Below are positions 14,518 through 44,345 of a stretch of 58,419 bases of DNA, piece by piece; the first letter of the stretch is position 1; every line of letters starts with the position of its first letter. Source of the DNA: Terriglobia bacterium (GTDB taxonomy: Bacteria > Acidobacteriota > Terriglobia > Bryobacterales > Bryobacteraceae); NCBI GenBank assembly GCA_020073615.1, contig JAIQEX010000025.1, positions 1 through 58,419 on the forward strand, read 5' to 3'. The position numbers and the translations under genes were made by a program. Below the pieces are notes generated by a model. It was not told the DNA's origin, ran no database searches, and saw only the letters and a program-made list of their open reading frames with translations.

Positions 14518-15324
14518 TCATTTCGGGGTGACGGGGAACAGATACTCCAGGACGCATCCGAAACGGGCGCCCCAGGCCTGCTCGTTGTGGCCCGCGCCGG
14601 GCACCTCGCGGTAGGCGAGATCTACGCCCTCGCGCCACCCTTTTTCGAGCAGCACGCCGCGCAGCAGGCGCAGATCGGCGATGACTTGCGGCGGAGAACT
14701 TCCCTCTTCGGTGCCGGCATCGAGCCACACGATGGGCCGCCGGGGCCACGATGCCGACGCGATCATTTTGAGAATGGCGCCTCCGTCCCACCAGACGGAA
14801 GGGGAGAGGGCGGCCACCTTGCCGAAGACGCGCGGATAGTACAGCCCCGTGGTGAGCGCCAGGAGGCCGCCGAGGGAGGAACCTCCGACAGCCGTCTCGG
14901 CGGCGGCTTTGCGGGTGCGATATTCGGCGTCGATGAACGGCTTCACTTCGCGCGCCAACATCTGCGCGTAGCGCTCCGCCTTGCCGCCCTTGCGCGTGCG
15001 GCGGTCGCGGGTGGGCGTGTACTCGGAGATGCGGCGCACGCCGGTATTGTAAATGCCCACCAGGATTGCGGGCCGGATGGCGCCGCTGGCGACGAGGGAG
15101 TCCGCGGTGATATCGGCGCGCCAGTCGTTGCCGCCAAACGCGGTGGCGGGGTCGAAGAGATTCTGGCCGTCCTGAAGGTAGAGGACGGGATGACGGGCGC
15201 CGGAGTGGTCATAGCCGGGCGGCAGATACACGATCAAATCGCGCGGGGTGGAGAGATAGCGGGAGGGGAAGCGGCGGTGGAGGCGAATCCGGTTTTGGTC
15301 GCGCGCCGCGCGGGGAAGATCCAT
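14518..15324 (-). CDS. Alpha/beta-hydrolase esterase (Esterase D / enterochelin esterase-like)
   Basis: A 268-aa esterase-fold protein. The family features are IVYLPPGYDHSGARHPVLYLQDGQNLFD near residue 30-60, the nucleophile elbow GGSSLGG (about residue 148-154), an acidic residue in VWLDAGTEE, and a terminal His in PGAGHNEQAW, so the triad looks complete. No signal peptide is obvious. The natural substrate is unknown. It is flanked by a G-rich repeat and a decayed DUF4160/DUF2442 pair. Confidence 0.85.
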   Translation of the reverse strand: MDLPRAARDQNRIRLHRRFPSRYLSTPRDLIVYLPPGYDHSGARHPVLYLQDGQNLFDPATAFGGNDWRADITADSLVASGAIRPAILVGIYNTGVRRISEYTPTRDRRTRKGGKAERYAQMLAREVKPFIDAEYRTRKAAAETAVGGSSLGGLLALTTGLYYPRVFGKVAALSPSVWWDGGAILKMIASASWPRRPIVWLDAGTEEGSSPPQVIADLRLLRGVLLEKGWREGVDLAYREVPGAGHNEQAWGARFGCVLEYLFPVTPK

Positions 15325-15344
15325 GCGGGGCTATTATCGCCCTT

Positions 15345-15575
15345 CTAGGAGTCCCGCCGCTGGAGCCAGCGACGTAAAGACTCCTGAGTCTCGCCCGATC
15401 TGCGGCCCGCCAGGAGACTCGCCACGCTGATATCTTCATCCAGATCCGGCCAATGGATCCCCTCGCCACCGGCAATCAGACGCCAGTTGGCCCGCTCCGC
15501 CGCAACCAGAGCATCGTCACTTACACTTACGCTTTGCGCCAGTGCTCCCCCGAGTTCAGTCCCCGAAGTACTCAT
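15345..15575 (-). CDS. DUF2442 family small protein
   Basis: A 76-aa protein whose C-terminal half (WRLIAGGEGIHWPDLDEDISVASLLAGR) matches DUF2442, small proteins usually encoded directly after a DUF4160 gene in what are thought to be toxin-antitoxin-like pairs. The ATG at 15573-15575 lies 7 bp after the stop of the decayed DUF4160 reading frame. This partner looks intact while DUF4160 is broken. Confidence 0.78.
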   Translation of the reverse strand: MSTSGTELGGALAQSVSVSDDALVAAERANWRLIAGGEGIHWPDLDEDISVASLLAGRRSGETQESLRRWLQRRDS

Positions 15576-15582
15576 GCCATGA

Positions 15583-15710
15583 TCACAACAACCAGGCCGC
15601 GTTTTCCGCAACCAACCTTTCGATGCGTCCAATTTCCGACCGGCCGAAGCCGCGGCTGTTCTCCAAGCGCACCGGCTCCAGCCAGGCCCCGCGCGAAGAA
15701 CGGTTGGCAA
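15583..15710 (-). pseudogene. DUF4160 remnant with internal deletion and frameshift
   Basis: The reading frame begins LPTVLRAG, matching the DUF4160 N terminus (usually MPTVLRIG), then jumps frame. It continues as WLEPVRLENSRGFGRSEIG and RIERLVAENAAWLL to a TGA at 15583-15585, matching the DUF4160 C terminus. About 25-30 central residues, including the usual PPHVHV segment, are missing. No single frame joins the parts. The usual ATG is replaced by TTG or lost. Confidence 0.75.
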
Positions 15711-15830
15711 CGTATCCCAGTGTACACGCATGTTCCAGTGATTTCGTGGTTACCGCTCGACCAGCGCGGCCTGGCCAGGGCGACCGCTCCCTTACGGGCG
15801 AGGCTCGGTTGGCAAGGCGGCTCGGGTATG

Positions 15831-16553
15831 ATGAGAGGCTTGCAGCGTGACTACATCAAGTGGTTCAGCCCGTCGCTTGGGCGCGATATGGAAATGCTCT
15901 GTTTTGGCCATCGCGGATTTCCCGTCGTGGTCTTTCCCACCTCCGGAGGGCGGTTCTATGAATATGAAGACCGCGGCATGGTGGGAGCGCTCGCAACGAA
16001 GATCGACCGCGGGGAACTGCAGGTGATCTGCGTCGATTCCGTCGACCAGGAGTCGTGGTACAACCGGTGGGCCGGCCCCGCCGACCGGGTGCGGCGGCAG
16101 GACGCCTTCGATGCTTACCTGGTCGAGGAAGTGACGCCCTTCGTCCGCCGGCGGACCAGTTGGCCGCAGATGGGCGCCACCGGGTGCAGCTTCGGCGGCT
16201 ACCACGCCGTCAATTTCGCCCTGCGCCATCCGGACATCGTCACCTACGCGGTCAGCATGTCGGCGGCCTTCAATATTCCGGAGCGCTTTCTGGACGGCTA
16301 CCACGACCAGACGGTCTATTTCCACGCGCCCCTGGAATATCTGCCGAACCTCGAAGACGGCTGGTTCCTGGAGCGCTTCCGGCGCAATTACTATGTGCTG
16401 GTGGTGGGCAATCACGATCCCCTATTCGATCAGAACGTGAAGCTGGCCCACGTCTTCGGCAGCAAAGCGATCCCGCACCTGCTGGACGTGTGGGAAGGCT
16501 TCGGTCACGACTGGCCGTGGTGGCACGGCATGGCTGCGAAATTTTTCCTGTAG
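15831..16553 (+). CDS. Alpha/beta-hydrolase (esterase-like), first gene of amidoligase cluster
   Basis: A 240-aa hydrolase with nucleophile elbow GCSFGG (about residues 121-126), an acidic residue in VVGNHDPLFD and a terminal His in GFGHDWPWW, so a full Ser-Asp-His triad is visible. Two adjacent ATGs (15828 and 15831) can start it; no strong ribosome-binding site marks either. It opens a six-gene run in which all the rest are amide-bond-forming or -breaking enzymes, 12 bp before the first ATP-grasp gene. It may cleave, cyclise or deprotect the cluster's product; that role is inferred from context only. Confidence 0.8.
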   Translation: MRGLQRDYIKWFSPSLGRDMEMLCFGHRGFPVVVFPTSGGRFYEYEDRGMVGALATKIDRGELQVICVDSVDQESWYNRWAGPADRVRRQDAFDAYLVEEVTPFVRRRTSWPQMGATGCSFGGYHAVNFALRHPDIVTYAVSMSAAFNIPERFLDGYHDQTVYFHAPLEYLPNLEDGWFLERFRRNYYVLVVGNHDPLFDQNVKLAHVFGSKAIPHLLDVWEGFGHDWPWWHGMAAKFFL

Positions 16554-16565
16554 AGTAGATCGAAT

Positions 16566-17543
16566 ATGATCCGGATCGGCGTGTTGTACGGCATGGAAGA
16601 GTCATTCCCCCCCGCCCTGGTGGACCGCATCAACGCCCTGGGCGCGGCCGGCGTCGCGGCGGAACACCTGAAGGTGGGCGGCGTGCAGATGGCGGCGCCC
16701 AGCGGCTATGGCGTCATTATCGACCGCATCTCCCACGACATTCCGTTCTACCGCTCGTACCTGAAAAACGCGGCGCTCACGGGCACGCGCGTGATCAACA
16801 ACCCGTTCTGGTGGAGCGCCGACGACAAGTTCTTCAACTACGCGCTGGCGGCGCGCCTGGGCGTGGCGGTGCCTCCCACCGTACTGCTGCCGCACAAGGA
16901 CCACCCGCCCAGCACCACCGCCCGCTCCATGCGCAACCTGGAGTACCCGCTCGATTGGGACGGCATCATGCGTTACACCGGCTTCCCCGCTTTTTTGAAA
17001 CCGCACGATGGCGGCGGGTGGAAGAACGTATATAAGGTCAATTCACCCGACGAGCTGTTTGCCGCCTACCGCGAGAGCGGCCGGTTGTGCATGACCTTGC
17101 AGCGCGGGGTGAACTTCGAGGAGTATTTCCGCTGCTACGTGGTGAACCAGCGGCACGTACACATCATGCGCTACGACCCGCGCCAGCCGCACCATCTGCG
17201 CTACGTGGCGGGCAACCCTCCGCCGGCTCCCGCGCTCGAAGCCCGCATGGTGCGCGACGCGCTCACGCTGTGCCGCGCCCTGGGGTACGATCTCAACACC
17301 GTGGAATTCGCCGTCGAGGGCGGCATCCCGTATGCCATCGACTTCATGAATCCGGCGCCCGATGCGGGCCTGGAATCGGTGGGGCCGGAGAATTTTGAAT
17401 GGGTGGTGGATCAGGTGGCGGCCATGGCGGTGGAGCGCGCCCTGGAGCCGGAGGGCGCGGCGGCGGCGCCTCATTGGGCGAGGTTTCTGGAGGGCGGCGA
17501 GCGCCCGGAGGAGAGGACATGGAACGGCCCAGCCTCAGCATAG
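16566..17543 (+). CDS. ATP-grasp ligase 1 (RimK/D-Ala-D-Ala ligase-like fold)
   Basis: A 325-aa protein. A pre-ATP-grasp N-terminal domain (MIRIGVLYGMEESFPPALV) is followed by ATP-grasp landmarks: YTGFPAFLKPHDGGGWKNVY (lysine plus glycine-rich loop, about residues 138-157), QRGVNFEEYFRCYVV (hinge and conserved acidic residues), and the metal-binding end EGGIPYAIDFMNPAP (Asp and Asn, about 250-265). Such enzymes couple a carboxylate to an amine through an acyl-phosphate. The substrate is not known. The last 25 bp overlap the next gene, whose own GGAGGAGAGG ribosome-binding site lies inside this coding sequence. Confidence 0.87.
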   Translation: MIRIGVLYGMEESFPPALVDRINALGAAGVAAEHLKVGGVQMAAPSGYGVIIDRISHDIPFYRSYLKNAALTGTRVINNPFWWSADDKFFNYALAARLGVAVPPTVLLPHKDHPPSTTARSMRNLEYPLDWDGIMRYTGFPAFLKPHDGGGWKNVYKVNSPDELFAAYRESGRLCMTLQRGVNFEEYFRCYVVNQRHVHIMRYDPRQPHHLRYVAGNPPPAPALEARMVRDALTLCRALGYDLNTVEFAVEGGIPYAIDFMNPAPDAGLESVGPENFEWVVDQVAAMAVERALEPEGAAAAPHWARFLEGGERPEERTWNGPASA

Positions 17544-18661
17544 GGATCGAGGAGGAATACCAGACCATCGACCCGGTTACCCGCGACCTGCGCTCGCACA
17601 TCCACGCGGAAATCGTGCAGAAGGGCAAGACCCTGCTGGCGGAGCGCGTGAAGCCGGAGATGCACCAGTCGGTGGTCGAGATCGGCACCGGGGTGTGCCG
17701 CAATATCCAGGAGGCCAAGGAAGAGATCCGCGCCATACGGCAGCAGATGATCGTGCTCGCCCGGCAGAACGGCCTGCGCCTGGCCGCCGGCGGCACGCAC
17801 CCCTTCGCCGAGTGGCGCGAGCAGGAAATCTATCCCGACGAGCGCTACCACACCATCGTCGAGGACCTGCGCATGGTGGCGCGCGCCAACCTCATCTTCG
17901 GACTGCACGTGCACGTGGGCGTGGAAGACCGGGAAGTAGCCATCCAGCTGATGAACGGTGCGCGCTACTTCCTGCCGCACCTGCTGGCGCTCTCCGCCAG
18001 TTCCCCGTTCTGGCTGGGCATGGATACCGGACTGCGCTCCTACCGCTGCAAAGTGTTCGACAAGTTCCCGCGCACCAACATACCGGACCTGTACCAAAGC
18101 TGGTCGGAGTTCGAAAATTACGTCAACCTCCTGATCCGCACCAACTGCATCGACAACGCCAAGAAGATCTGGTGGGACATCCGCCCGCACCCGTATTTCC
18201 CGACCCTGGAATTCCGCGTGTGCGACATGACCATGCGCCTCGAGGAGACAATCGCCATTGCCGCGCTGTGCCAGGCCATCATCGCCAAGCTGTACAAGCT
18301 GCATGAGCGCAACCTGTCGTTCCGCTATTACCAGCGCTCCCTCATCATGGAGAACAAGTGGCGCGCGGCGCGCTACGGACTGGAGGGCAAGCTGATCGAT
18401 TTCGGCAAGCAGGCCGAGGTGCCCGAGCGCGTGCTGATCGGCGAGCTGCTGGAATTCGTGAGCGACGTTGTGGACGAACTGGGGAGCGCGGAGGAGATCG
18501 CCTACATCCGTCAAATTCTGGAGCACGGAAACGGCGCCGACCGCCAGTTGCGGGTGTTCGCGGAAACGGGAGACCTGAAGAAGGTAGTCGATTACATGAT
18601 CGGCGAGACCGAACACGGGCTGTTCGACGCCGCCACGGCGGGCGCCGCGGAGGCGCAGTGA
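17519..18661 (+). CDS. Carboxylate-amine ligase, YbdK / glutamate-cysteine ligase type 2 family
   Basis: A 380-aa member of the COG2170 family (glutamine-synthetase-like fold). Landmarks are IGIEEEYQ near the N terminus (metal-binding acids), AAGGTHPFAEW, FGLHVHVGV (His ligands) and TLEFRVCDM, all typical of YbdK/EgtA-like gamma-glutamyl ligases. Family members join the gamma-carboxylate of glutamate or related acids to amines. The ATG at 17519 has the strong GGAGGAGAGG site. The stop overlaps the next gene's GTG by 4 bp. Surrounded by ATP-grasp ligases, it is probably one of several ligation steps on one molecule. Confidence 0.92.
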   Translation: MERPSLSIGIEEEYQTIDPVTRDLRSHIHAEIVQKGKTLLAERVKPEMHQSVVEIGTGVCRNIQEAKEEIRAIRQQMIVLARQNGLRLAAGGTHPFAEWREQEIYPDERYHTIVEDLRMVARANLIFGLHVHVGVEDREVAIQLMNGARYFLPHLLALSASSPFWLGMDTGLRSYRCKVFDKFPRTNIPDLYQSWSEFENYVNLLIRTNCIDNAKKIWWDIRPHPYFPTLEFRVCDMTMRLEETIAIAALCQAIIAKLYKLHERNLSFRYYQRSLIMENKWRAARYGLEGKLIDFGKQAEVPERVLIGELLEFVSDVVDELGSAEEIAYIRQILEHGNGADRQLRVFAETGDLKKVVDYMIGETEHGLFDAATAGAAEAQ

Positions 18662-19686
18662 CGGGCGGGGGAAGCTCGCTTCGAGAAGTAGCGTTCGATC
18701 CGGAATTGACGCCCGGCGCGCGCAACGCGGTGGTGTGCTGCCTGCGCATCCAGCCGGACGAGAAGGTCACACTCATCACCGACCGCGCCTGCCGCGACAT
18801 CGCCGCCAGCCTGGCGCGCGAGCTCGATCGGCTGGCTGTATCCTATAATGCCTGGACGCTGGAGGATCTGGCGCCGCGCCCGCTGGCCGACATGCCGGGC
18901 GCGATCCTGGAGGACATGGAGACCAGCCAGGTGAGCATCTTCGCCGTGAAGGCGCAGCCTAACGAGCTGCGCACGCGCATGCAGATGACCGACGTGGTGA
19001 ACCGCCGTAAAATGCGCCACGCGCACATGGTGAACATCGACCGCCGCATCATGATGGAGGGCATGCGCGCCGATTTCTCCGAGGTGGACCGCATCAGCAC
19101 GGAGGTCTGGCGCATGGCCGGGGCGGCCCGCGAGATCCGCGCCACCAATCCCGCGGGCACCGAACTGATTGGGCGCTTCTCGCCCAACCTGAAATGGGTG
19201 AAGACCAGCGGCATCATCAGCCCGCACAAGTGGGGCAATTTGCCGGGAGGCGAAACCTTCACCTGCCCGGAGCGGGTGGATGGCACGTTCGTGATCGATG
19301 GCGTGGTGGGCGACTACCTGTGCGAAAAGTACGGCGACCTGCAGGCGGCGCCGCTCACCATCCGCATCGCCGACAGCCGGCTGCTCGAAGCGCGCTCCGA
19401 GAACCAGGAGCTGGCCGAGGAGTTCTGGCGGTACTGTCACACCGACGAGAACAGCGACCGCGTGGGCGAGTTCGCCATCGGCACCAACATCGCGGTGCGC
19501 GACGTGATCGGCAACATTCTCCAGGACGAGAAGATCCCCGGCATTCACATCGCGTTCGGCAATCCGTACGGCGCGCACACCGGCGCCGATTGGTACAGCG
19601 CCACGCACATCGATGTGGTGGGGCGCCACTTCGACATCTGGATCGACGGGCGCCAGATCATGCGCGCCGGAGCGTTTCTGTTTTGA
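18658..19686 (+). CDS. M29-family aminopeptidase-like protein
   Basis: A 342-aa protein matching the M29 metallo-aminopeptidase family (thermophilic aminopeptidase, PepS). Key regions are the family-type NLPGGETFTCP and the C-terminal zinc-ligand region HIAFGNPYGAHTGADWYSATHIDVV. The GTG start overlaps the previous stop (GTGA) and the stop overlaps the next TTG start (TTGA). Within a run of ligases it may trim a precursor, act in reverse as a ligase, or protect the host from the product. Those roles are inferred. Confidence 0.87.
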   Translation: MTGGGSSLREVAFDPELTPGARNAVVCCLRIQPDEKVTLITDRACRDIAASLARELDRLAVSYNAWTLEDLAPRPLADMPGAILEDMETSQVSIFAVKAQPNELRTRMQMTDVVNRRKMRHAHMVNIDRRIMMEGMRADFSEVDRISTEVWRMAGAAREIRATNPAGTELIGRFSPNLKWVKTSGIISPHKWGNLPGGETFTCPERVDGTFVIDGVVGDYLCEKYGDLQAAPLTIRIADSRLLEARSENQELAEEFWRYCHTDENSDRVGEFAIGTNIAVRDVIGNILQDEKIPGIHIAFGNPYGAHTGADWYSATHIDVVGRHFDIWIDGRQIMRAGAFLF

Positions 19687-20870
19687 TTGCTGCGCGCCGC
19701 CAGCCGTTTCTGCGTGACTATTCCCCCGCGAAGTATGCGCGCTTTCTGGAATTGCTGGAACGGCGCTGCGGTGAGGCCACGCCCTTCCGGCACAGCGAAA
19801 CGCCGTGCTTCTTCCGTCGCGAATTGATCGACCGCATGGCTCGCTACGGCGCTGAGATGGTGGCGCAACTACTCGCCGACGCGCGCTACCAGGAGGCGTC
19901 GCGCGAGGCGGTTCCCGCTGCCTGCCGCGTACCCGGCGAAGCCCCGGTGCCGCTGTTCGTCCAGGCGGATTTCGGCCTGAACCAGGAGCTCGAGCCCAGG
20001 CTGGTGGAGATCCAGGGCTTCCCTTCCCTGTACGCCTATCAGCCGGTGCTGTCCGCCGCCTACCGCGAGGCGTACGGCATCGACCCCGCGCTCGATACCC
20101 TGCCGGCGGGCCTGACCCTCGCCGAATATCACGCCCTCCTGGGCGAGGCGATTGTGGGCGGCCACGACCCGGAAAACGTAATCCTGATGGAGATCGATCC
20201 CGCGCACCAGAAGACGCGCCACGATTTTCTGATGACCGAGCAACTGTTCGGCGTGCGCGCTGTGGACATACGTTCGCTGCACAAGCAGGGGAACCGGCTG
20301 TTCTACGAGCGCGATGGAAAGCTGACGCCCATCCGCCGGATCTACAACCGCGCCATTGTGGATGAACTGGAGCGGCGCCGTGTCGCCCTGCCGTTCGATT
20401 TTCGCGACGACCTGGACGTGGAATGGGCCGGCCATCCCAACTGGTTTTTCCGTCTCAGCAAGTTTTCGCTGCCCTATTTGAAACACCCCGCGGCGCCGCC
20501 GACCGAATTCCTGAGCGATGTGGAGCGCGTGGAGCATCCGGAGCGGTACGTCTTGAAGCCGCTGTACTCCTTCGCCGGCGCGGGGGTCGTCGTGGGGCCG
20601 ACGGCGGAGCAGATCGGCGCTATCCCCGCGGCACGGCGCCGCGATTACATTCTCCAGGAGCGCGTGGATTTCCGGCCGGTGATCGAAACGCCGTGCGGGC
20701 CGGCCAAAGTGGAAGTGCGCATCATGTACCTGTGGCTGGGCTCGCTGCGCCCGGTCAACACCATTATCCGCATGGGCCGCGGCGCGCAGATGGGCGTGGA
20801 TCACAATAAGGACTTCGCGTGGGTGGGCGCGTCGGCGGCGTTCCTCTCGCCGGGGGGAGACGAAGCATGA
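19683..20870 (+). CDS. ATP-grasp-like ligase 2
   Basis: A 395-aa protein starting at a TTG that overlaps the previous stop codon. The N-terminal half contains VQADFGLNQELEPRLVEIQGFPSLYAYQ, where the acidic Asp/Glu pattern resembles the metal site that comes early in circularly permuted ATP-grasp enzymes such as glutathionylspermidine synthase. The C-terminal half has nucleotide-binding features RYVLKPLYSFAGAGVVVGPT, YILQERV and a late KVEVRIMYLWLG. I infer a permuted arrangement; a structural prediction would be needed. Its stop overlaps the next ATG by 4 bp. Confidence 0.75.
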   Translation: MIAARRQPFLRDYSPAKYARFLELLERRCGEATPFRHSETPCFFRRELIDRMARYGAEMVAQLLADARYQEASREAVPAACRVPGEAPVPLFVQADFGLNQELEPRLVEIQGFPSLYAYQPVLSAAYREAYGIDPALDTLPAGLTLAEYHALLGEAIVGGHDPENVILMEIDPAHQKTRHDFLMTEQLFGVRAVDIRSLHKQGNRLFYERDGKLTPIRRIYNRAIVDELERRRVALPFDFRDDLDVEWAGHPNWFFRLSKFSLPYLKHPAAPPTEFLSDVERVEHPERYVLKPLYSFAGAGVVVGPTAEQIGAIPAARRRDYILQERVDFRPVIETPCGPAKVEVRIMYLWLGSLRPVNTIIRMGRGAQMGVDHNKDFAWVGASAAFLSPGGDEA

Positions 20871-22066
20871 CATTCCTGTGCCTGGCCGGTTACGAGAAGG
20901 GCCACGAGTTCCTGCGGCAGGCCAAGCGGCAGGGGTCTTACGTGGTGCTGGTCACCTCGCTCAGCCTTAAGGACAAGGCGCGGTGGCCGCTCGACAGCAT
21001 CGACGAAATCTTTTGCATGCCGGACGACAACCACCAGTGGGACCGCCGGCAGACGCTGAACGCGGTGACCTACCTGGCGCGGACGCGCGTGTTCGACCGC
21101 ATTGTGGCGCTGGACGATTTCGACGTGGAGACGGCCGCGGCGCTGCGCGAGCACCTGCGCGTTGCGGGCATGGGCGAGACCACGGCGCACTACTTTCGCG
21201 ACAAGCTCGCCATGCGCATGAAGGCGCAGGAAGCCGGCCTGTTCGTGCCCGAGTTCATCCACGTGCTGCATCACGAGCGCCTGCGGCAATTCATGGAGCA
21301 GGTACCCGCGCCGTGGGTGCTGAAGCCGCGCTCGATGGCCGGCGCCATCGGCATCAGGAAGATTGCCAGCGCCGGCGAGTTGTGGCCGGCCATCGAATCG
21401 CTGGGCGACATGCAGTCGCATTACCTGCTGGAGCGGTTCGTCGCGGGCGCCATTTTTCACGTAGACACGATCGTCTACGAGAGCAAGGTGCTGTTCGCCA
21501 TTGCCAGCGGATACGGGCGCCCGCCCATGGAAGTTTCGCACGAGGGCGGCATCTTCACCACGCGCATTCTGGAACGGGAATCCGAGGATGCGCGCGGCCT
21601 GCTGGCGGAAAACGAACGCGTGATGGCGGCGCTGGGCATGCTGCGCGGCGTGTCGCACACGGAGTTCATCAAGGGCGCCGCCGACGGCCGCATTTATTTC
21701 CTGGAGACCTCGGCGCGGGTGGGCGGCGCGCATATCTCCGACCTGGTGGAAGCGGCCAGCGGGCTGAACCTGTGGGCGGAATGGGCCAAGCTGGAATGGG
21801 CCGGCGGCAAGACTCCCTATCACCCGCCCGGGCCCCTGCGCGACTATGCCGGCCTGTTGGTGTCGCTGGCGCGGCAGGAGCGGCCGGACCTGTCGGCGTA
21901 CACCGACCCGGAGATCGTATGGCGGATGGACAAGGAGCACCACGCGGGACTGATCGTAAAATCGGCGGACGCGGGGCGGGTAAAGCAGTTGCTGGAGGAG
22001 TATGCGCGCCGGTTTCGCGAGGATTTTTTCGCGTACGCGCCGCCGCAGGACAAGCCGACGCATTGA
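20867..22066 (+). CDS. ATP-grasp ligase 3 (carbamoyl-phosphate-synthetase-like fold)
   Basis: A 399-aa protein with the full ATP-grasp order. A Rossmann-like N-terminal domain (LCLAGYEKGHEFLRQAKRQG) is followed by a linker to FRDKLAMRMKAQEAGLFVPEF, then PWVLKPRSMAGAIGIRKI (phosphate-binding lysine and loop), YLLERFVAGAIFHVDTIV (hinge and acids) and IYFLETSARVGGAHI (metal-binding Glu, Arg). This resembles BtrJ/biotin-carboxylase-type ligases that use amino-acid or peptide substrates. GGGGGAGACGAAGC before the ATG gives a good ribosome-binding site. It is the last gene of the six-gene cluster. Confidence 0.87.
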   Translation: MTFLCLAGYEKGHEFLRQAKRQGSYVVLVTSLSLKDKARWPLDSIDEIFCMPDDNHQWDRRQTLNAVTYLARTRVFDRIVALDDFDVETAAALREHLRVAGMGETTAHYFRDKLAMRMKAQEAGLFVPEFIHVLHHERLRQFMEQVPAPWVLKPRSMAGAIGIRKIASAGELWPAIESLGDMQSHYLLERFVAGAIFHVDTIVYESKVLFAIASGYGRPPMEVSHEGGIFTTRILERESEDARGLLAENERVMAALGMLRGVSHTEFIKGAADGRIYFLETSARVGGAHISDLVEAASGLNLWAEWAKLEWAGGKTPYHPPGPLRDYAGLLVSLARQERPDLSAYTDPEIVWRMDKEHHAGLIVKSADAGRVKQLLEEYARRFREDFFAYAPPQDKPTH

Positions 22067-22135
22067 GAGGGAGGAGATCCCCGAAAATGCGCAGATCCAT
22101 TGTCTCAGGTCGGCATGATTCTGAGGACACGTTCG

Positions 22136-22768
22136 TTAAACTGACTCGGCATTAGCTCTGGCCTGCAACGTCGACATCCAGTAAATCTCTACCGGCTGAA
22201 TGAGAGTCTTACCGTGGAGCGTCGTAGCGGTCAAGTTGCCACGCAGCGGTTCTTCCGGCAACCCCTCCGCGAGTTTGCCAACGCCTCGGAAGTAGAGACT
22301 ACCCTGAACAATTTCGTTCGGTGGCAACTTCACCATTGGAGAGGGCCACCACGGAACACCGCCGATCAGATGGCGTGGCGCGGATGCCGGCTCTAATTCT
22401 ATGCTCAAAGTCGGGAAACTGAGCCTCCAGGTCACTACTTGATCCGGCTGGTCCGTCGGATTCGAAAGGCTCGCAACGAGGAGAATTGCGTGTTCCTCAG
22501 TTGAGTACGCGCCACTGGATACGGACAGTTGAATGCCTGTCTGCGCAGCCTCGATTTGGGGTGCTGGCGTCGCTTGGTTCCGCAATTTCTCGCCGACCTC
22601 AGCGGACACGCCGAATGCACCTACCTTGTTAACACGGTTTAACAGAAGCCGCAGACCTTCCAGCAGGGAGCGAATCTGCTTTTGGAAAACCAACCCGGCG
22701 ATGATGGCCACGACAGGCCAAGACAAGAGAACCTTCGCAAACTCAAGCGCGATCTTCACGACGTCCAT
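22136..22768 (-). CDS. Single-pass membrane protein of unknown function
   Basis: A 210-aa protein with one membrane segment near the N terminus (LLSWPVVAIIAGLVF, about residues 14-28), a short amphipathic helix and a soluble beta-rich remainder. No family recognised. The DNA here is visibly poorer in G and C and has less skewed third positions than the flanking operons, suggesting recent acquisition. It is followed by a VapBC-like pair on the same strand. Confidence 0.65.
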   Translation of the reverse strand: MDVVKIALEFAKVLLSWPVVAIIAGLVFQKQIRSLLEGLRLLLNRVNKVGAFGVSAEVGEKLRNQATPAPQIEAAQTGIQLSVSSGAYSTEEHAILLVASLSNPTDQPDQVVTWRLSFPTLSIELEPASAPRHLIGGVPWWPSPMVKLPPNEIVQGSLYFRGVGKLAEGLPEEPLRGNLTATTLHGKTLIQPVEIYWMSTLQARANAESV

Positions 22769-22885
22769 CGGTCTTCATCCTACCTCAGCAGAGCACTGCC
22801 GCTTGATGGAATGTACGATTGTCGAACGCAATTTGTTCGAGGGGACGGCAGGCGCCGCCTGCACGATTTCGCCGGCACGGCGCGA

Positions 22886-23266
22886 TCAGTAACCAGGCAC
22901 TTCAAGGTGGAGGCCCTCGATCATCCGATAGTGTTTTCGATTGAGGGTGACTAGGGTGAGCGCCTTCTCCATCGCAGTCGCCGCCACAAGCGAATCGAAC
23001 ACGTGAAGTCCATGCGATTTCGCGTAGGTCTTCAGGAGCCGGTAGGCTCCCGTTCCGATGCTGTCGCTGAGCGGTATGACTGGGTACAGCGACAAGAACC
23101 CGTCAATCGTGGCAAGGTCCCGCTTGTATCGAGGGCCGACGATGAGCTCCATGGCGGTCACTTGTGAGAGTGCCCATGAGTCCGCCAGACCATCAACGTA
23201 TTTGATCGCCGCGCCATTGCCTCGTGAAACGTCGATCAGGACATTGCTATCGATCAGGAACGGCAT
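22886..23266 (-). CDS. vapC: PIN-domain ribonuclease toxin (VapC family)
   Basis: A 126-aa PIN-domain protein. Acidic active-site residues are seen in FLIDSNVLIDVSR (first Asp), TAMELIVGPRY (Glu), and VFDSLVAATA plus LVTLNRKHY (the C-terminal Asp is expected in the first of these). VapC toxins cut tRNA or rRNA. The ATG at 23264-23266 is preferred; a TTG at 23288-23290, directly after the antitoxin stop, would add eight residues and improve coupling. The cognate antitoxin is the gene just upstream. Confidence 0.87.
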   Translation of the reverse strand: MPFLIDSNVLIDVSRGNGAAIKYVDGLADSWALSQVTAMELIVGPRYKRDLATIDGFLSLYPVIPLSDSIGTGAYRLLKTYAKSHGLHVFDSLVAATAMEKALTLVTLNRKHYRMIEGLHLEVPGY

Positions 23267-23290
23267 GCGGTCACTCAGTATGCTGCTCAA

Positions 23291-23512
23291 TCAGCGGTGC
23301 AGCTCGCGGCGCAGGCGGTCGATGTATGCGACGCTGTCGGCCATGTCTTCACGATCCTTCCACATGCCGGCGAAGGGCGAATCGCCAATGGATCGCGGCC
23401 GGCTGGCAGGCGCCTCCACCGGAACATGCACCTCGACGAGCGTGCCCTCTTTGATCGGCACGTCCTGAAGGGGCTTGAAGACGCCATTCTCGTATCTTGC
23501 GGGTATCGTCAT
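23291..23512 (-). CDS. AF2212-like (DUF104) antitoxin, VapB-type partner
   Basis: A 73-aa protein opening MTIPARYENGVFKPLQDVPI, the hallmark of the AF2212/PG0164 (DUF104) antitoxin family. A basic C-terminal helix (IDRLRRELHR) would bind the PIN toxin. It sits directly upstream of vapC on the same strand, the usual order. TA pairs normally autoregulate from the antitoxin promoter; no operator could be assigned with confidence. Confidence 0.85.
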   Translation of the reverse strand: MTIPARYENGVFKPLQDVPIKEGTLVEVHVPVEAPASRPRSIGDSPFAGMWKDREDMADSVAYIDRLRRELHR

Positions 23513-23582
23513 GCCGCTCTCTCCAGTATACGGTAGCCGCCATTGACCAAACGCTTTCCGCGCGCTACTGTCAGTACTGCCA

Positions 23583-23864
23583 ATGAACGACCTGCGCTAT
23601 GCCTTTCGCGGCCTGCGGCGCTTGCCCGCCGTGGCCGCTCTCGCGGTGGTTACGCTCGGGCTCGGGCTCGGCGCCACCACCGCCATCTTCTCGGTGGCTA
23701 ACGCCGTGATGCTGCGCTCGCTCGCAGTCAACAAACCCGAAGAGCTGGTGGTGCTCCGCTACGTGTCGAAGAAGGGCAACATCTTCGACACCTTCGAGTA
23801 CGGGGAATACACCGCAGGAGAAGCCGGCGCATTGAGGGAGCCTGCGAAATTTGGTGTACCTTGA
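23583..23864 (+). pseudogene. Truncated ADOP permease 5' fragment
   Basis: The first 78 codons match the N terminus of the full permease at 24390 almost residue for residue (MNDLRYAFRGLRRLPAVAAL against MNDLRYAFRGLRRSPAVAVL). The similarity ends after EYGEYTA at about 23815. The frame then runs 16 codons through unrelated sequence to a stop. Only the first membrane segment is left, so it cannot be a working permease. It is the left arm of a partial gene duplication. Confidence 0.85.
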
Positions 23865-24389: not shown

Positions 24390-26861
24390 ATGAACGACCT
24401 GCGCTATGCCTTTCGCGGCTTGCGGCGCTCGCCCGCTGTGGCCGTGCTCGCGGTGGTTACCCTCGGGCTCGGGATCGGAGCCACCACCGCCATCTTCTCG
24501 GTGGCCAACGCCGTGATGCTGCGCTCGCTTGCGGTGAACAAACCCGAAGAGCTGGTGGTGCTCCGCTATGTGTCCAAGAAGGGCAACATCTTCGACAGCT
24601 TCGAGTACGGCGAATATACCGCGCTGCGCGACGCGCCCGGCGCCCTGGCCGGCCTGGCCGCGCTTGCGCCCATGGAGTTCAACCTGTCGAGCGACGAAGC
24701 CACCGAGCGCGTCGCCGGCCAGTTGGTGACGGGGAATTACTTTCCCCTGCTGGGGGTGCGTCCGCAGATCGGGCGGCTGCTGGTGCCGGACGACGATCTC
24801 CATCCCGGCGGGCACCCCGTGTGCGTGATCGGCCACGGGCTGTGGCAGCGGCGCTTCGGCTCGTCGCCGGGGGTGCTCGGCAGGCAGATCCAGATCAACG
24901 GGCGGCCGTATTCCATACTGGGCGTCACCGCGGCCAGTTTCGGCGGCGTCCAGCAGGGCACGGAGGCACAAGTTTACATTCCGCTCATGATGGCGGCCCA
25001 GGTGTCCATACGCGCGGCCGATCCCAAGGTGCAGCCGCCCTTCCTTTCGTGGACGGATTGGCTGCAGTGCATCGGGCGGCGCGCGCCCGGCGTGACGCGC
25101 GAGCGGGCGGAGGCGGCGCTCGATGCCCGCTTCGCGCAGCTTCCCACGGCGCATCGCACCACCACCTTCGAAATGTCTTCGCGCCACGGCCAGCCGGGCG
25201 GGCGGGCGCGCCTGCTGGCGGTGGACGGGCGGCAGGGGTTCGACGATGTGCGCTTCGGCTACCAGCGTCCGCTCACCATCCTTCTGTTCCTGGTGGCGCT
25301 GCTGCTGCTGATTGTGTGCGCCAACGTGGCCAACCTGCTGCTGGCGCGCGCGGCGGGGCGGCGCAAGGAGATCGCCATCCGCATCGCCCTGGGCGGCGGC
25401 GCTTGGGCGTTGGTGCGGCAACTGCTGGCGGAGAGCCTGCTGCTGGCTTCGGGCGGCGCGCTGTGCGGCCTCACGCTGGCTCTGTGGATGCCCGAGCTGC
25501 TGCTGCGCCTGGCCTCCTCGGGCGCGCCGCAGGATCTGGACGTGCAGCCGGATTGGACGGTGGCCGCGTTCCTGCTGGGGGTCACCTGCCTGACGGCATT
25601 CCTGTTCGGGCTGGCGCCGGCGCTGGCGTCGGTGCGCACCGGGGTGGCCGCGGCTCTCAAGAACGAGGGCGGCGGCGCGGGCCGGGGACGGCGCGCCCTG
25701 GGCGGCATGCTGGTGGTGGCGCAAGTGGCGCTCTCGGTGACCCTGCTGACCGGCGCCGGGCTGCTGCTGCGCACGCTCCACAACCTGCGGTCCATCCAGC
25801 CGGGTTTCCGCCCCGAGAATGTCGTGCTGGCCTCGATGAATCCGGGGGCGAACCGCTATACCGCGGGGCAAAGCCGCGCGCTATTCGAACAACTGATGGA
25901 GCGCGCCGGGACCATACCGGGCGTGCAGGCCGCCAGCGCCGCGCTGATCAGCCCGCTCTCGGGCAACCTGTGGCTGTACTCGGTGGAGGTGCCCGGCTAT
26001 CGCACGGCGCCGGGCGAACGGGCCATGGCGTACTTCGATGCCGTGGGGCCGGGCTACTTCGCCAGCATCGGCACGCAGTTGAAGGAGGGCCGCGAGTTCA
26101 CGCGCCTGGACCGCCAGGGCGCGCCCATAGTGGCCGTGGTGAACGAAGCCATGGCGCGGAAATTCTGGCCGGGGCGCAGCCCGCTGGGACAGCGGTTCCA
26201 GTCCGCCGCGGCCGCGGGCGCCAGCGTGGAAGTGGTGGGTGTGGTGCGCGATTCGGTCTACCGCGATCTGCGCGAGAACCGCGAGGCGGTCCTCTATATG
26301 CCGCTGCTCCAGGGCGAGTATAGCTCGGCCACGCTCGATCTGCGGGTGGCGGGCGATGTGCCGCGCGTATTCGGCGCCTTGCGCGCCCTGGCGCGCCAGA
26401 TCGACCGCACCGTGCCGCTCTACGACACGCGCACGCTCGAAGCGCAGATCGCCGGAACCTTTTCGGTGGAGCGGATGCTGGCCACCATCTCCTCGCTGTT
26501 CGGCGCGCTGGCCATGCTGCTGGCGGCGGTGGGCCTGTATGGCGTGCTGGCGTACTCGGTGGCGCAGCGCTCGCGGGAAATCGGCATCCGCATGGCGCTG
26601 GGGGCCGGTCACACGCAGGTGATCGGGGCAGTGATTCGCGAGACGTTGCTCATGGTGGCGGTGGGGGTGGCGCTCGGGCTGCCGGCTTCCCTCGCCGCTT
26701 CGCGGTGGATCGCGGCGTCGCTCTACGGGCTGAAGCCGGGCGATCCGCTCACCTACGGAGTGGTGATCGCGGTGCTGTGCGCGGCCTCCCTGGCCGCGGC
26801 CATTGTGCCCTCCCGCCGGGCGGCGCGGGTCGATCCCATGGTGGTTCTGCGCTGCGATTGA
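24390..26861 (+). CDS. ADOP-type ABC permease (MacB/FtsX family)
   Basis: An 823-aa membrane protein with the MacB layout twice over: a first membrane segment near residue 20-42 (VAVLAVVTLGLGIGATTAIF), a periplasmic MacB core domain (about 45-260), an FtsX domain with three membrane segments (about 290-420), a second core domain (about 440-660), and a second FtsX domain ending EIGIRMALGAGHTQVIGAVIRETLL and PSRRAARVDPMVVLR. This double arrangement without a fused ATPase is the acidobacterial duplicated orphan permease (ADOP) family. No ATPase gene is adjacent. The substrate is unknown. A broken copy of its 5' end lies upstream. Confidence 0.92.
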   Translation: MNDLRYAFRGLRRSPAVAVLAVVTLGLGIGATTAIFSVANAVMLRSLAVNKPEELVVLRYVSKKGNIFDSFEYGEYTALRDAPGALAGLAALAPMEFNLSSDEATERVAGQLVTGNYFPLLGVRPQIGRLLVPDDDLHPGGHPVCVIGHGLWQRRFGSSPGVLGRQIQINGRPYSILGVTAASFGGVQQGTEAQVYIPLMMAAQVSIRAADPKVQPPFLSWTDWLQCIGRRAPGVTRERAEAALDARFAQLPTAHRTTTFEMSSRHGQPGGRARLLAVDGRQGFDDVRFGYQRPLTILLFLVALLLLIVCANVANLLLARAAGRRKEIAIRIALGGGAWALVRQLLAESLLLASGGALCGLTLALWMPELLLRLASSGAPQDLDVQPDWTVAAFLLGVTCLTAFLFGLAPALASVRTGVAAALKNEGGGAGRGRRALGGMLVVAQVALSVTLLTGAGLLLRTLHNLRSIQPGFRPENVVLASMNPGANRYTAGQSRALFEQLMERAGTIPGVQAASAALISPLSGNLWLYSVEVPGYRTAPGERAMAYFDAVGPGYFASIGTQLKEGREFTRLDRQGAPIVAVVNEAMARKFWPGRSPLGQRFQSAAAAGASVEVVGVVRDSVYRDLRENREAVLYMPLLQGEYSSATLDLRVAGDVPRVFGALRALARQIDRTVPLYDTRTLEAQIAGTFSVERMLATISSLFGALAMLLAAVGLYGVLAYSVAQRSREIGIRMALGAGHTQVIGAVIRETLLMVAVGVALGLPASLAASRWIAASLYGLKPGDPLTYGVVIAVLCAASLAAAIVPSRRAARVDPMVVLRCD

Positions 26862-41485: not shown

Positions 41486-43228
41486 TCAGCCCGGCGCGCG
41501 GTCCGGGGCCTCGCTTCCTGCCAATTGCTCGACGGCCACGGGAACCAGCGGAGGGCGCATCGAATCCCGCGGCCAGCCGAGCAGGAATTCCAGGGCTGGA
41601 CCGCACACCCGCCCCTGGCACGGCCCCATGCCGCACCGCGTGTAGAGCTTGGCGGCGCGGCGATTTCCACAGGAGACGATGCGCTCCAGCGCCACGTCTT
41701 CGCAACGGCAGACGATGGTTTCGTGTGCGGCCAGCGCGGCGAGCTCCGGGCGCAAGGCAAAGGCGGCGTCCAGGCGCGCGGCGAATCGCGCGGCAGCGCG
41801 CCGGGCGCGGAAAAGGGGCCGCGCGCGATCGCGGGCTCCCGCGGCCGCCAGCCCAGCAATCTCACCCTCCGCCAGCGCCAGGTCCACGCCGCCGATGCCC
41901 GTGGGTTCGCCGGCGCAGTATACGTCTTCGAGCGTAGTCTGCTGCCATTCATCGACGCGCACGCGGTCTTCCTCCAGCGCGCAGCCGAGGAGCAGCGCCA
42001 ACTCGACATTGGGGACCAGGCCGAAACCGCAGGCCAGGTAGTCGCACGGCTGGCGCGATTCGCCGCCGGCCCCGCCCAGCACCACGGCCTCGATGCGCCC
42101 ATCGCCTTCCGCGCGCACCGGCCAGCAGCTTGTGGCGTAGCGGGTGCCCGCTAGACTGAGGCGCAGGCGCGCCGCTTGCGCCAGTTTCTCCAGGTGCGCG
42201 GCCAGGCGGAGGGCAAAGGCGGCCACGCGGCTGAGCGGCGCCTGTTCGGCGATCACCGGCACGCGCGCGCCGTGCTCGCGCAGGTAAGCCGCGACCGCCA
42301 GCAGGAGGGGCCCGGAGCCGGCCACCACCACCGTCTTACCGGCCAGCGGCAATCCCGATTTGGCGAGAGCCTGCAGGCCCCCGGCCCCCATCACGTTGGG
42401 CAGCGTCCAGCCGGGAAACGGCAGGAAGAGCTCGCGCGCGCCGGTGGCGAGCACCAGCTTGCCGTAATGCAGTTCAACCAGAGCGCCGTCGCGCTCGGCC
42501 GCCAGGACGGAAGGGGACGGCGCATCGAAAACGCGCGTCCGGGAAAACAGGGCGACCGGGGCGGCGCGGAAGCGCTCGAACCAGCGCGCGGCCAGTGCGG
42601 AAGGCGCGAGGCCGGAGCCGCCGCGCCAGATCTGGCCGCCGGGCGACGGATTGTCGTCCACCACGGCTGCTTTCGCACCAGCTTCCGCGGCGGCGGCAGC
42701 CGCGGCCATGCCCGCGGGCCCCGCCCCGATCACCAGCACGTCGAACCGATGGGTCTCCGCAGCAGCCGCCATTCCCGGCTCTTCCAAACGCCCGGCCCGA
42801 AGGGCCGCCCCTTTCCCCGGCCCCCAGCCCCCAGCCGCGAGCCCCTGCTCATCCCCACGCCCGGCCCGAAGGGCCGCCCCTTTCCCCGGCCCCCAGCCCC
42901 CAGCCCCCAGCCCCTGCTCATCCCCACGCCCGGCCCGAAGGGCCGCCCCATTCCCCAGCCCCCAGCCCCCAGCCCCCAGCCCCTGCTCTACCCGCACTTC
43001 CATGCCCGGCTCGCAGAGCGTCTGGCAGGCCAGGCGATGGGGAATGCCGTCGATCGTGACGCGGCACTCGAAGCAGATCCCCATGGCGCAGAGCGGCCCG
43101 CGCGGCGCGCCCCCGACCGAGGTGCGGAAGGCGGCCTGCCCCGTCGCCAGCATGGCCGCGGCCACGCTGGAGCCAGCGGGCACGCTCGCCGGCCGGCCGT
43201 CGATGGTCAGCGCCACCGCGTCAGGCAT
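41486..43228 (-). CDS. Fused 2Fe-2S / FAD oxidoreductase subunit, hydroxyproline operon
   Basis: A 580-aa fusion. Residues 1-80 form a 2Fe-2S domain (CAMGICFEC...LACQT). Residues about 80-150 are a low-complexity linker of three in-frame 23-residue repeats. From about 155 (DVLVIGAGPAGMAAAAAAAEAG) comes an FAD/NAD(P)-binding oxidoreductase with a second cofactor motif GKTVVVAGSGPLLLAVA. The C terminus has a BFD-like 2Fe-2S site, CRCEDV and CGMGPCQGRVC. Separate HcnA- and HcnB-like subunits normally pair with a D-amino-acid oxidase subunit, which is the gene directly upstream here (8-bp overlap). Together they likely oxidise cis-4-hydroxy-D-proline. Confidence 0.87.
   Translation of the reverse strand: MPDAVALTIDGRPASVPAGSSVAAAMLATGQAAFRTSVGGAPRGPLCAMGICFECRVTIDGIPHRLACQTLCEPGMEVRVEQGLGAGGWGLGNGAALRAGRGDEQGLGAGGWGPGKGAALRAGRGDEQGLAAGGWGPGKGAALRAGRLEEPGMAAAAETHRFDVLVIGAGPAGMAAAAAAAEAGAKAAVVDDNPSPGGQIWRGGSGLAPSALAARWFERFRAAPVALFSRTRVFDAPSPSVLAAERDGALVELHYGKLVLATGARELFLPFPGWTLPNVMGAGGLQALAKSGLPLAGKTVVVAGSGPLLLAVAAYLREHGARVPVIAEQAPLSRVAAFALRLAAHLEKLAQAARLRLSLAGTRYATSCWPVRAEGDGRIEAVVLGGAGGESRQPCDYLACGFGLVPNVELALLLGCALEEDRVRVDEWQQTTLEDVYCAGEPTGIGGVDLALAEGEIAGLAAAGARDRARPLFRARRAAARFAARLDAAFALRPELAALAAHETIVCRCEDVALERIVSCGNRRAAKLYTRCGMGPCQGRVCGPALEFLLGWPRDSMRPPLVPVAVEQLAGSEAPDRAPG
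42788..42994 (-). repeat. Three tandem 69-bp repeats inside a coding sequence
   Basis: Units start at 42788, 42857 and 42926. Each is 69 bp (23 codons), has a GGCCC-gaa-GGGCC hairpin and CCCCCAG runs, and reads through in frame as a glycine/alanine-rich linker (GLGAGGWGPGKGAALRAGR). The element matches the intergenic G-rich repeat at 14405-14465. The 2Fe-2S and FAD domains on either side look complete. Confidence 0.92.
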
Positions 43229-44345
43229 GGGCCGGCTCCTGCTCCAGGCGCGCGGGCAGGTAGGGCGCCGCGGCGATGGCGGGCTCGCGCCCCAGGATCA
43301 TATCGGCCACCAGCCGCGCCGTGCCCAGCGATGTGGTGATGCCGAGACCTTCGTGTCCGGTGGCGAGGTAAACGTCAGGCGCGCCGGATGCCGGGCCGAT
43401 GAGCGGCAGGCTGTCGGGCGTGGCGGCGCGGAACCCGGCCCAGCAGCGGATCACGCTCAGGCGGGCGAGCGCGGGCATGTAGTCGATGGCGCGCCGCAAC
43501 ATGCGGCCGAGCATGGCGCGATCCACGCCGCCTTCGGTGACGCCGAACTGTCGCGAGGAGCCGATGAGCACCTGTCCGGTCTTGCGCGGCTGCACGTTGA
43601 ACGCCACCGATTCGCTGGCTGCGCCGTGGGCGCTCTTCAAGTACCCCAGCTCCACGATCTGCCGCCGCACAAAGCCGGGATAGCGGTCCGTAATGGCCAG
43701 TTGACCTTTGCGCGGGCGGATGGCGAGCGAGGGAAAAAGCGAGGTGGCCCAGGCGCCCGTGGCGCACACGATGTGGCGCGCTTCGAGCCACGCGCCGCCC
43801 GGCAGGGGCACGCGGCCGCGCTCCAGCGCGCGCGGCTCGGCGGCATAGAAAGCGGCCCCGCGCGCGAGGGCGCGATCCAGCATCCACCTGGCCGCGAAAG
43901 GGGCGTAGATGACCCAGTCGCCGGGAACCAGGAGGGCGCCGGCCAGTCCCGGACGGAGGTTGGGCTCGGCTTCGGCCAGCGCGCGCGCGTCCAGCGTATC
44001 TGTGGCCACGCCGCGCGCGCCGTAGAACGCGGCTTTGCCGGCCACCGCGCCCATCTCCTCCGCGTCCGCGGCCACCCACAGGGTGCCGCAGCGCTCCGGC
44101 TCGGCGGCGGCGGGAAGCTGCGGCATCAGGCCGTCCCACAAATCGCGCGAGTAGCGGGTGAGGGCGAACTCGGCTTCGGAATCGTCCATCACCACGATGT
44201 GGCCCATGCCGGCGGCAGTGGCGCCGCCGCCGGCCACCGCGGGCTCGATCACCGCCACGCTCAGGCCCTCGGCAGTGAGCGCGTCGGCGCAGGCCGCCCC
44301 CACGATGCCGGCGCCGAGGATGGCCACGTCCACCGGGCGGGTCAT
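43221..44345 (-). CDS. FAD-dependent D-amino-acid oxidase family (cis-4-hydroxy-D-proline oxidase candidate)
   Basis: A 374-aa DAO-family flavoprotein. It opens [20 protein letters not shown] (Rossmann GxGxxG), has the FAD ribityl region and ends [18 protein letters not shown]. Homologs act on glycine, sarcosine or D-proline derivatives. Its position between a 4-hydroxyproline epimerase and a 2Fe-2S/FAD subunit argues for cis-4-hydroxy-D-proline oxidation. The ATG overlaps the epimerase stop by 4 bp; an earlier in-frame start at 44726 runs back through the epimerase gene and is rejected. Confidence 0.88.

Follow-up and report, generated by a model that had tools for sequence, protein, structure and literature searches.

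Five genes, A to E, form a conserved neighborhood in Acidobacteriota. On balance, we favor the view that a small amide-linked molecule is assembled stepwise and recycled in the cytosol by the products of this locus, with neither a nonribosomal peptide synthetase (NRPS) nor the ribosome involved. Its four putative amide-bond-making enzymes and three hydrolases probably build and recycle a glutathione-like small molecule inside the cell.

Organization of the Locus

The window is a stretch of 58,419 nucleotides from a Terriglobia bacterium. The features considered are the following:

A, 15831-16553, plus strand: esterase-fold alpha/beta hydrolase; alternative ATG at 15828
B, 16566-17543, plus strand: predicted RimK/LysX/ArgX-type ATP-grasp ligase without a Pfam match; more widespread than any other gene in the set
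C, 17519-18661, plus strand: putative YbdK/GCS2 carboxylate-amine ligase
D, 18658-19686, plus strand: metalloenzyme of the M29 fold and probable aminopeptidase or amidase; GTG start
E, 19683-20870, plus strand: predicted glutathionylspermidine synthetase/eukaryotic glutathione synthetase fold (circularly permuted ATP-grasp); TTG start
F, 20867-22066, plus strand: L-amino-acid-ligase-like ATP-grasp protein; optional locus member
W, 14518-15324, minus strand: apparently cytosolic serine esterase of PF00756, oriented divergently to A and outside the cluster as first annotated
W-A divergent intergenic region, 15325-15827, no strand: presumed control region, by position only

The first-pass annotation had described six genes with an overlap at each junction after the first, and the sequence agrees: all six open reading frames lie on the plus strand, A and B are separated by 12 bp, B and C overlap by 25 bp, and the C/D, D/E, and E/F junctions are GTGA, TTGA, and ATGA, respectively. 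The accompanying suggestion that the overlaps keep the proteins in a fixed ratio finds little support, since most overlaps are not conserved among relatives; in the best 80 of 578 loci, the called neighbors overlap at 4 of 65 A-B, 6 of 70 B-C, 32 of 66 C-D, and 11 of 48 D-E junctions. No sigma-70-like site was reported in 15325-15827, and a small-ORF comparison with nine near loci revealed no conserved small ORF in this intergenic region. Terminator and promoter scans performed no better than shuffles, and no Rfam family or tRNA was found in the window.

Conservation of the Gene Neighborhood

The loci compared were the best 80 of 578 B relatives by similarity to B, all titled Acidobacteriota; genes of other genomes were called with a purpose-written script. 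Of the 52 loci in this sample with enough flanking sequence, 37 have A-B-C-D-E on a single strand and in this order. Where 1.5 kb or more precedes B (73 loci), A lies upstream in the same orientation in 65; where 5 kb or more follows B (56 loci), C, D, and E are found downstream in 54, 52, and 48, respectively. As a control, the commonest non-cluster family occurs in 13 of the 80 loci. The set is not always complete, as A and B stand without C, D, and E in some loci (L073, L075, and L077).

The proposed gene order thus holds in other genomes for A-B-C-D-E, but the six-gene cluster of the first-pass annotation needs correction at both ends. Its last gene, F, is an occasional member, present in 4 of these best 80 loci and usually unlinked, and W had been left out. 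W flanks the cluster in 20 of the same 80 loci (with the strand taken into account, 13 of the 54 that have 4.5 kb or more upstream), and in L093, L095, and L097 W and F share a strand and overlap by 4 bp. W belongs to the gene unit in the nearest relatives.

Spread by plasmids was considered and rejected: among 72,556 plasmid records, B and E had no match at 1e-15 and 1e-5, C matched 25 records, each at less than 60% identity, and the two inspected lacked partner ligases nearby. Divergent B-like genes (about 30%) were seen in five other genomes, partly near PF00756 esterase or F-like genes; they are too distant to use.

Co-occurrence and the Exchange of E and c7

Co-occurrence was analyzed in 199 genomes of the phylum, counting strong matches only and ignoring kinship; thresholds were set by eye at gaps in the score tables. 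Strong matches were kept in 23 of the 25 genomes with any match for E, 53 of 89 for B, 15 of 50 for D, 34 of 65 for F, 58 of 70 for A, 43 of 62 for C (E-value up to 1e-60), and 28 of 37 for c7 (up to 1e-20). The c7 family is a second ligase family of the GspS/glutathione-synthetase type; of two c7 sequences, one attains the CP_ATPgrasp_1 cut-off, and hhalign relates the family to E with a probability of 94.5 over 194 columns.

B accompanies nearly all occurrences of the other ligases in the 199 genomes: all 43 genomes with C, all 34 with F, all 28 with c7, and 22 of the 23 with E. A occurs in 50 of the 53 B genomes, D in only 14 of them. Strong B is found in none of the weaker-match genomes left out (19 for C, 9 for c7), so that under a looser cut B is present in 43 of 62 genomes with C and in 28 of 37 with c7.

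E or c7 is present in 48 of the 53 B genomes, both in two, and neither in five. At the level of families, assumed to number 67, the highest label seen, B occurs in 20, E in 10, and c7 in 11, with E and c7 together in two and neither in one. As the two are rarely found together and seldom both missing from B genomes, we suggest one slot that is filled by two families.

The ATP-Grasp-Type Ligases

The first-pass annotation had listed three ATP-grasp ligases and a YbdK-type ligase, and the folds or families of B, C, E, and F fit this description; B and E lack Pfam support, and their ligase nature is therefore argued from profiles and folds. It had also proposed structure prediction for all six proteins; this was done for B and E, and both predicted folds are ligase-type.

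The predicted structure of B (pLDDT 88.7) has a RimK/LysX-type ATP-grasp fold, its best match being RimK (VIA Z 23.1; rmsd 2.6-2.8 over 261-264 aligned residues), followed by LysX/ArgX (VIA Z 21.8-22.1; ArgX 22.1, LysX 22.0). Its profile matches the D-Ala ligase 3r23 (E-value 3.4e-6), and K145, E247, D259, and N262 are invariant in 110 sequences. Among NCBIfam models, B does not exceed the rimK_fam or LysX cut-offs; only D_ala_D_ser is listed, at 19.6 versus 520 bits.

E has no match to Pfam or NCBIfam models at 0.001. Its predicted structure (pLDDT 93.3) is by whole-length fold that of a glutathionylspermidine/glutathione-synthetase-type ligase, matching YjfC (VIA Z 25.7), YgiC (25.6), GspS (25.0), and human GSS (24.5) over residues 1-390 of 395, with rmsd of 3.5-3.8 over 345-359 aligned residues. 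D96, E109, Q111, K292, R346, and N375 are conserved at 100% in 72 sequences. E and B share 10-19% identity with solved structures, and a common fold does not assign a function. F contains the ATP-grasp_4 domain PF13535 (29.7 versus 27 bits), and matches the solved L-amino acid ligase 4wd3 (E-value 1.3e-15).

RimK as the top structural match of B raises the question of protein or peptide tagging, with B and the GspS-like E attaching short amide-linked tags and D, A, and W removing them. The title of entry 5zk6 names a RimK complex with RpsF, ATP-grasp protein modification is discussed in a part of PMC4431377, and all gene products appear cytosolic. However, LysX/ArgX, Ddl, and fold kinases score close to RimK for B (Z 19.4-22.1), so its fold does not point specifically to protein substrates, and no conserved target or adaptor gene was found at the best 80 of 578 loci. 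We regard tagging as fairly unlikely.

The YbdK-Type Ligase and Glutathione

By score, C is a member of the YbdK/PRK13515 carboxylate-amine ligases (PF04107, 231.5 versus 21 bits; PRK13515, 560.9 versus 371 bits), and it matches the solved YbdK structures 1tt4 and 1r8g with E-values of about 1e-65. It falls outside the GshA equivalog TIGR02048 (86.6 versus 249.05 bits) and below the cut-offs of other families named "glutamate--cysteine ligase". The canonical bacterial glutathione synthetase domain PF02955 has no match in the genome (98% complete), the control having matched in 9 of 14. The glutathione pathway is therefore rejected, and the ligases were not found to belong to a known primary pathway.

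A glutathione analogue, that is, a low-molecular-weight thiol with C acting as the gamma-Glu-Cys-type ligase and E as the ligase of glutathione-synthetase fold, would agree with the match of these two proteins to the families or folds of both glutathione synthesis steps and with the lack of PF02955 in the genome. We consider it quite improbable, as C lies outside the GshA equivalog, B and F are left without an explanation, and another thiol is probably present: the bacillithiol gene BshC occurs in the genome and in 50 of the 53 strong-B genomes. Every one of the 21 genomes sampled from the class carries BshC, whether strong B is present (13 genomes) or not; a thiol role is thus not needed, and the locus as a bacillithiol substitute was rejected.

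Hydrolases, Precursors, and Transport

A is an esterase-fold protein (PF00756, 40.4 versus 22 bits; putative esterase 5vol, E-value 5e-7) whose S120, D196, and H226 are conserved at 99-100% in 84 sequences. W matches the same family more strongly (114.1 versus 22 bits), with S150, D217, and H246 invariant in 16 sequences. D is an M29-fold metalloenzyme (PF02073, 38.4 versus 27 bits) that probably acts as an aminopeptidase or amidase. It aligns with AmpS 1zjc (E-value 1.6e-6), E199, E271, and H297 falling on Glu, Glu, and His of AmpS; these residues and H317 and D319, which lie outside the AmpS alignment, are conserved at 99-100% in 77 sequences. Since the D profile also touches the 2,5-dihydroxypyridine dioxygenase 7cn3 of the same fold (E-value 7.4e-4), D may be a non-peptidase.

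No NRPS adenylation or condensation domain was found by Pfam in A-F or W, and no tailoring gene within the operon. When the small ORFs in 15250-15900 and 22040-23600 were set against nine near loci, matches appeared only at the starts of A and W; a ribosomally made peptide or graspetide was rejected, as the flanks of these close relatives hold no conserved precursor gene. The view that NRPS, tailoring enzyme, and precursor peptide are all missing is thereby upheld.

The esterases could also serve the release of, or resistance to, a secreted antibiotic or siderophore-like product. A and W share the fold of enterochelin esterase, with weak NCBIfam matches, and NRPS-free ATP-grasp antibiotics exist, according to a section of PMC12568646. 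Against this, Pfam reveals no exporter or uptake receptor within the operon, which also lacks a tailoring enzyme; nothing of this kind recurs widely in the flanks, where, judged by eye, no transporter-like family occurs in more than 7 of the best 80 of 578 loci. Moreover, the locus is kept in 20 of 67 sampled families, unlike a sporadic antibiotic cluster. A secreted product seems to us quite improbable.

Proposed Pathway

The preferred reading, cytosolic assembly and recycling of an amide-linked molecule, builds on several observations: the genes present and their conserved order, the exchange of E for c7, the co-occurrence pattern, the folds predicted for B and E, and the conservation of catalytic-type residues. 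We infer the order of steps, the cytosolic site, the substrates, and the product, as well as its role, which we take to be that of a solute, cofactor, or stress metabolite and not of a secreted antibiotic. The product would be a pseudopeptide, and the logic of its assembly would be that of glutathione and peptidyl-polyamines. C would phosphorylate a carboxylate (of gamma-glutamyl type, by family) and couple it to an amine; B, of RimK/LysX type, and F where present, of L-amino-acid-ligase type, may append further amino-acid-like units; E would complete the chain with a bond between the carboxylate of the peptide and an amine or amino acid, a slot that c7 may fill in other families; trimming, deprotection, or recycling of the product could fall to the metalloenzyme D and to the two serine esterases, A and W. 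An excerpt of PMC4431377 states that distinct peptide ligases, when linked, often catalyze successive ligations.

We tentatively suggest, as a rather doubtful possibility, an intracellular gamma-glutamyl-type peptide with an amine cap (possibly a polyamine), common to many Acidobacteriota, that is built by C, B, and F, closed by E or c7, two GspS-fold ligases that look unrelated, and recycled by A, W, and D. If so, it would correspond in Acidobacteriota to glutathionylspermidine/trypanothione or to a peptide osmolyte. Spermidine synthase was set aside as support for a polyamine substrate: PF01564 matches three times, and these matches carry little weight because they lie inside open frames of 783-886 codons.

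The E family without a Pfam or NCBIfam model, the widespread partner ligase B without a Pfam match, and one slot shared by two families define a conserved pathway in a phylum that is among the most common in soil. Because the set combines four ligase types, enzyme assays offer a chemical route to the product, and species that naturally have or lack the locus, or that swap E and c7, offer ready comparisons for metabolomics. If the product acts as a solute or cofactor, it would add a new trait to the physiology of Acidobacteriota.

Comparison with Known Systems

A 2009 survey of amidoligases reportedly includes a system of a circularly permuted ATP-grasp protein, Alpha-E, and transglutaminase. 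This system, as given in part of PMC3597751, also uses a circularly permuted ATP-grasp ligase, but A-F and W contain no Alpha-E or transglutaminase domain. For YbdK/PRK13515, the two plasmid relatives of C inspected came from Paracoccus and Spirosoma. In pseudouridimycin synthesis, two stand-alone carboxylate-amine ligases, PumK and PumM, act in sequence (PMC6586884, in part); that cluster has dedicated nucleoside tailoring genes and transporters, whereas this operon has none.

The E-64 pathway, with the fungal Cp1B and an amide bond synthetase, is likewise an NRPS-free stepwise pseudopeptide assembly, and a passage of PMC12568646 presents Cp1B as its glutathione-synthetase-fold ATP-grasp enzyme. 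The Cp1B structure 9cjn matches E at Z 22.0. The operon differs in having neither an oxygenase nor an ANL amide bond synthetase, and combines several ATP-grasp types with a GCS2 ligase.

Finally, Escherichia coli YgiC/YjfC and GspS resemble E in fold over residues 1-390 (Z 25.0-25.7), and the peptide-amine ligase logic of YgiC/YjfC, cited as peptide-spermidine ligases in PMC12568646, resembles the proposed pathway. E differs from them in being 11-15% identical, in its lack of a Pfam match and, at 395 residues, of an amidase domain, and in its position in an operon with three other ligase types.

Gene content and family assignments

The six genes delimited in the first-pass annotation retained their coordinates and junctions when the sequence and its ORFs were rechecked. 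They are listed here together with the adjacent divergent gene W.

14518-15324, minus strand: W, PF00756 esterase
15831-16553, plus strand: A, PF00756 esterase (family model)
16566-17543, plus strand: B, no Pfam family matched
17519-18661, plus strand: C, YbdK-type GCS2 ligase (PRK13515, 560.9 bits vs a cut-off of 371)
18658-19686, plus strand: D, M29-family protein (family model)
19683-20870, plus strand: E, no Pfam family matched
20867-22066, plus strand: F, ATP-grasp_4 protein close to L-amino acid ligases

The genome carrying the window, which is one entire contig, comprises 6.96 Mb in 252 contigs. By protein B, its closest named relatives among the best 80 of 578 are Bryobacterales/Solibacteraceae, with 78-79% identity.

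Just downstream of the cluster, 22889-23512 (minus) holds a VapBC-like toxin-antitoxin pair: a PIN-domain protein (PF01850) and, immediately upstream, its AF2212-like partner (PF01954). The short ORF 23583-23864 (plus) repeats the start of the MacB/FtsX-type permease gene at 24390-26861 (plus), 500 bp further on, and is a truncated duplicate of it. Four genes at 41486-46199 (minus), encoding a 2Fe-2S/FAD oxidoreductase, a DAO-type oxidase, and members of the proline-racemase and DHDPS families, resemble a hydroxyproline catabolic operon.

Conservation of the locus

Scanning the genome collection with the B alignment gave 578 relatives, of which the best 80, to which all locus counts in this section refer, are titled Acidobacteriota without exception. 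Locus content was determined by tblastn with A-F and W, order counts being restricted by the available flank. The gene-order search suggested in the first-pass annotation bore out conservation, A-B-C-D-E being complete in 37 of the 52 loci with enough flank. In 65 of 73 loci A precedes B in the same orientation; downstream of B are C (54 of 56), D (52 of 56), and E (48 of 56), with the C-D-E order kept in 47 of 56. W is present in 20 of the 80 loci and F in four; the commonest flank gene family outside the cluster occurs in 13. Three of the four F genes (L093, L095, L097) lie upstream of A with a 4 bp overlap with W; the fourth (L096) comes after E, the arrangement seen in the window. The nearest relatives thus carry W and F as members of the cluster unit, arranged in two ways.

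Cluster loss also occurs: several Acidobacteriaceae keep A-B alone (L073, L075, L077) or have E separate from B and C (L033, L035, L037, L040). Locus L041, in genome G151 with no strong B match, retains D and E but just a C-terminal fragment of C (residues 228-368); it is a decaying cluster copy.

Other neighbors include c13, a family of 320-379 residues with no Pfam or NCBIfam match. It adjoins E in L043 (8062-9021), sits between C and E in L047 (9919-10899, minus), and in L031 is followed, upstream of A, by an ATP-grasp protein that carries a PGM1_C domain (region 14525-17196, minus). Locus L171 (8872-12559, G198:C59) has three tandem F-like ATP-grasp genes beside a glycosyltransferase gene. 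In L172 (5458-8897, G059), a distant B-like gene comes after a PF00756 gene of enterochelin-esterase type and the gene of a 311-residue protein; by eye, similar trios occur in L170 and L175.

Co-occurrence across the phylum

Strong matches, with thresholds set by eye at table gaps, were counted in 199 Acidobacteriota genomes treated without regard to kinship (no tree); family counts assume 67 families. B is found in 53 genomes and 20 families. C (43 genomes) and F (34) always occur with B; A does so in 50 of 58 genomes, E in 22 of 23, and D in 14 of 15. Likewise, B is present in all 11 families with F, 10 of 11 with E, and six of seven with D. Since F is nearly always unlinked from the cluster in the sampled genomes, linkage does not account for its full nesting among the B genomes. 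The set is not always complete in the 53 B genomes: three are without strong A, 10 without C, and 39 without D.

A different protein of 445-453 residues, c7, occurs in other families, directly between B and C in L078, L079, L081, and L087 and elsewhere near B. All 28 genomes with strong c7 have B. The 53 B genomes divide into 20 with E only, 26 with c7 only, two with both, and five with neither (10 of the 20 B families have E, 11 c7, two both, and one neither), and all 34 F genomes carry E or c7. c7 is assigned to the circularly permuted ATP-grasp proteins by weak Pfam scores (above cut-off in one of two sequences) and by the match of its profile to the solved GspS-like protein 3n6x (E 2.4e-11); its profile also matches that of E (probability 94.5, 194 columns). 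We read E and c7 as distant families that share a fold and fill one biochemical slot.

Predicted structures and conserved residues

The AlphaFold2 model of E (38 sequences, pLDDT 93.3) has as best Foldseek matches 3n6x, yeast glutathione synthase, YgiC, and YjfC. Its VIA Z scores are 25.7 for YjfC, 25.6 for YgiC, 25.0 for GspS, 24.5 for human GSS, and 22.0 for Cp1B, followed by 12.0 and then at most 8.3. The B model (34 sequences, pLDDT 88.7) scores 23.1 with RimK, about 22 with LysX/ArgX, and 19-20 with D-Ala ligases.

Catalytic-type residues, which from family knowledge we take to be triads and metal or ATP ligands, are conserved in A (Ser120/Asp196/His226), W (Ser150/Asp217/His246), D (Glu199, Glu271, His297, His317, Asp319), and E (Asp96, Glu109, Gln111, Lys292, Arg346, Asn375). 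Three of the D residues are additionally placed as ligands by alignment with AmpS. A peptidase activity of D is likely but less than sure, because its profile also matches a dioxygenase of the same fold.

Proposed pathway and known systems

C would activate a carboxylate, of the gamma-glutamyl type to judge by the family of C, and join it with an amine. Extension of the chain would fall to B and F, and E or c7 would close the product with an amine or amino acid, like GspS and YgiC/YjfC. A, W, and D would process or recycle the product. By eye, A, W, and D have no evident N-terminal signal peptide, and no transporter-like family, also named by eye, occurs in more than seven of the 80 flanks (best 80 of 578); from these features the product is probably cytosolic. 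A substitute thiol was considered as the product; BshC, which the window's genome shares with each of the 21 genomes sampled from its class irrespective of B, argues against it.

Searches of the open-licence literature gave no paper recognized as a description of this gene set. Successive action of linked, distinct peptide ligases is a pattern stated in PMC4431377, and the E-64 pathway, as outlined in PMC12568646, resembles the proposed one in its demonstrated ligase of the GSH-synthetase fold and NRPS-free pseudopeptide assembly. We assign the gene set to the already known NRPS-free multi-ligase amide assembly rather than to a new kind of system.
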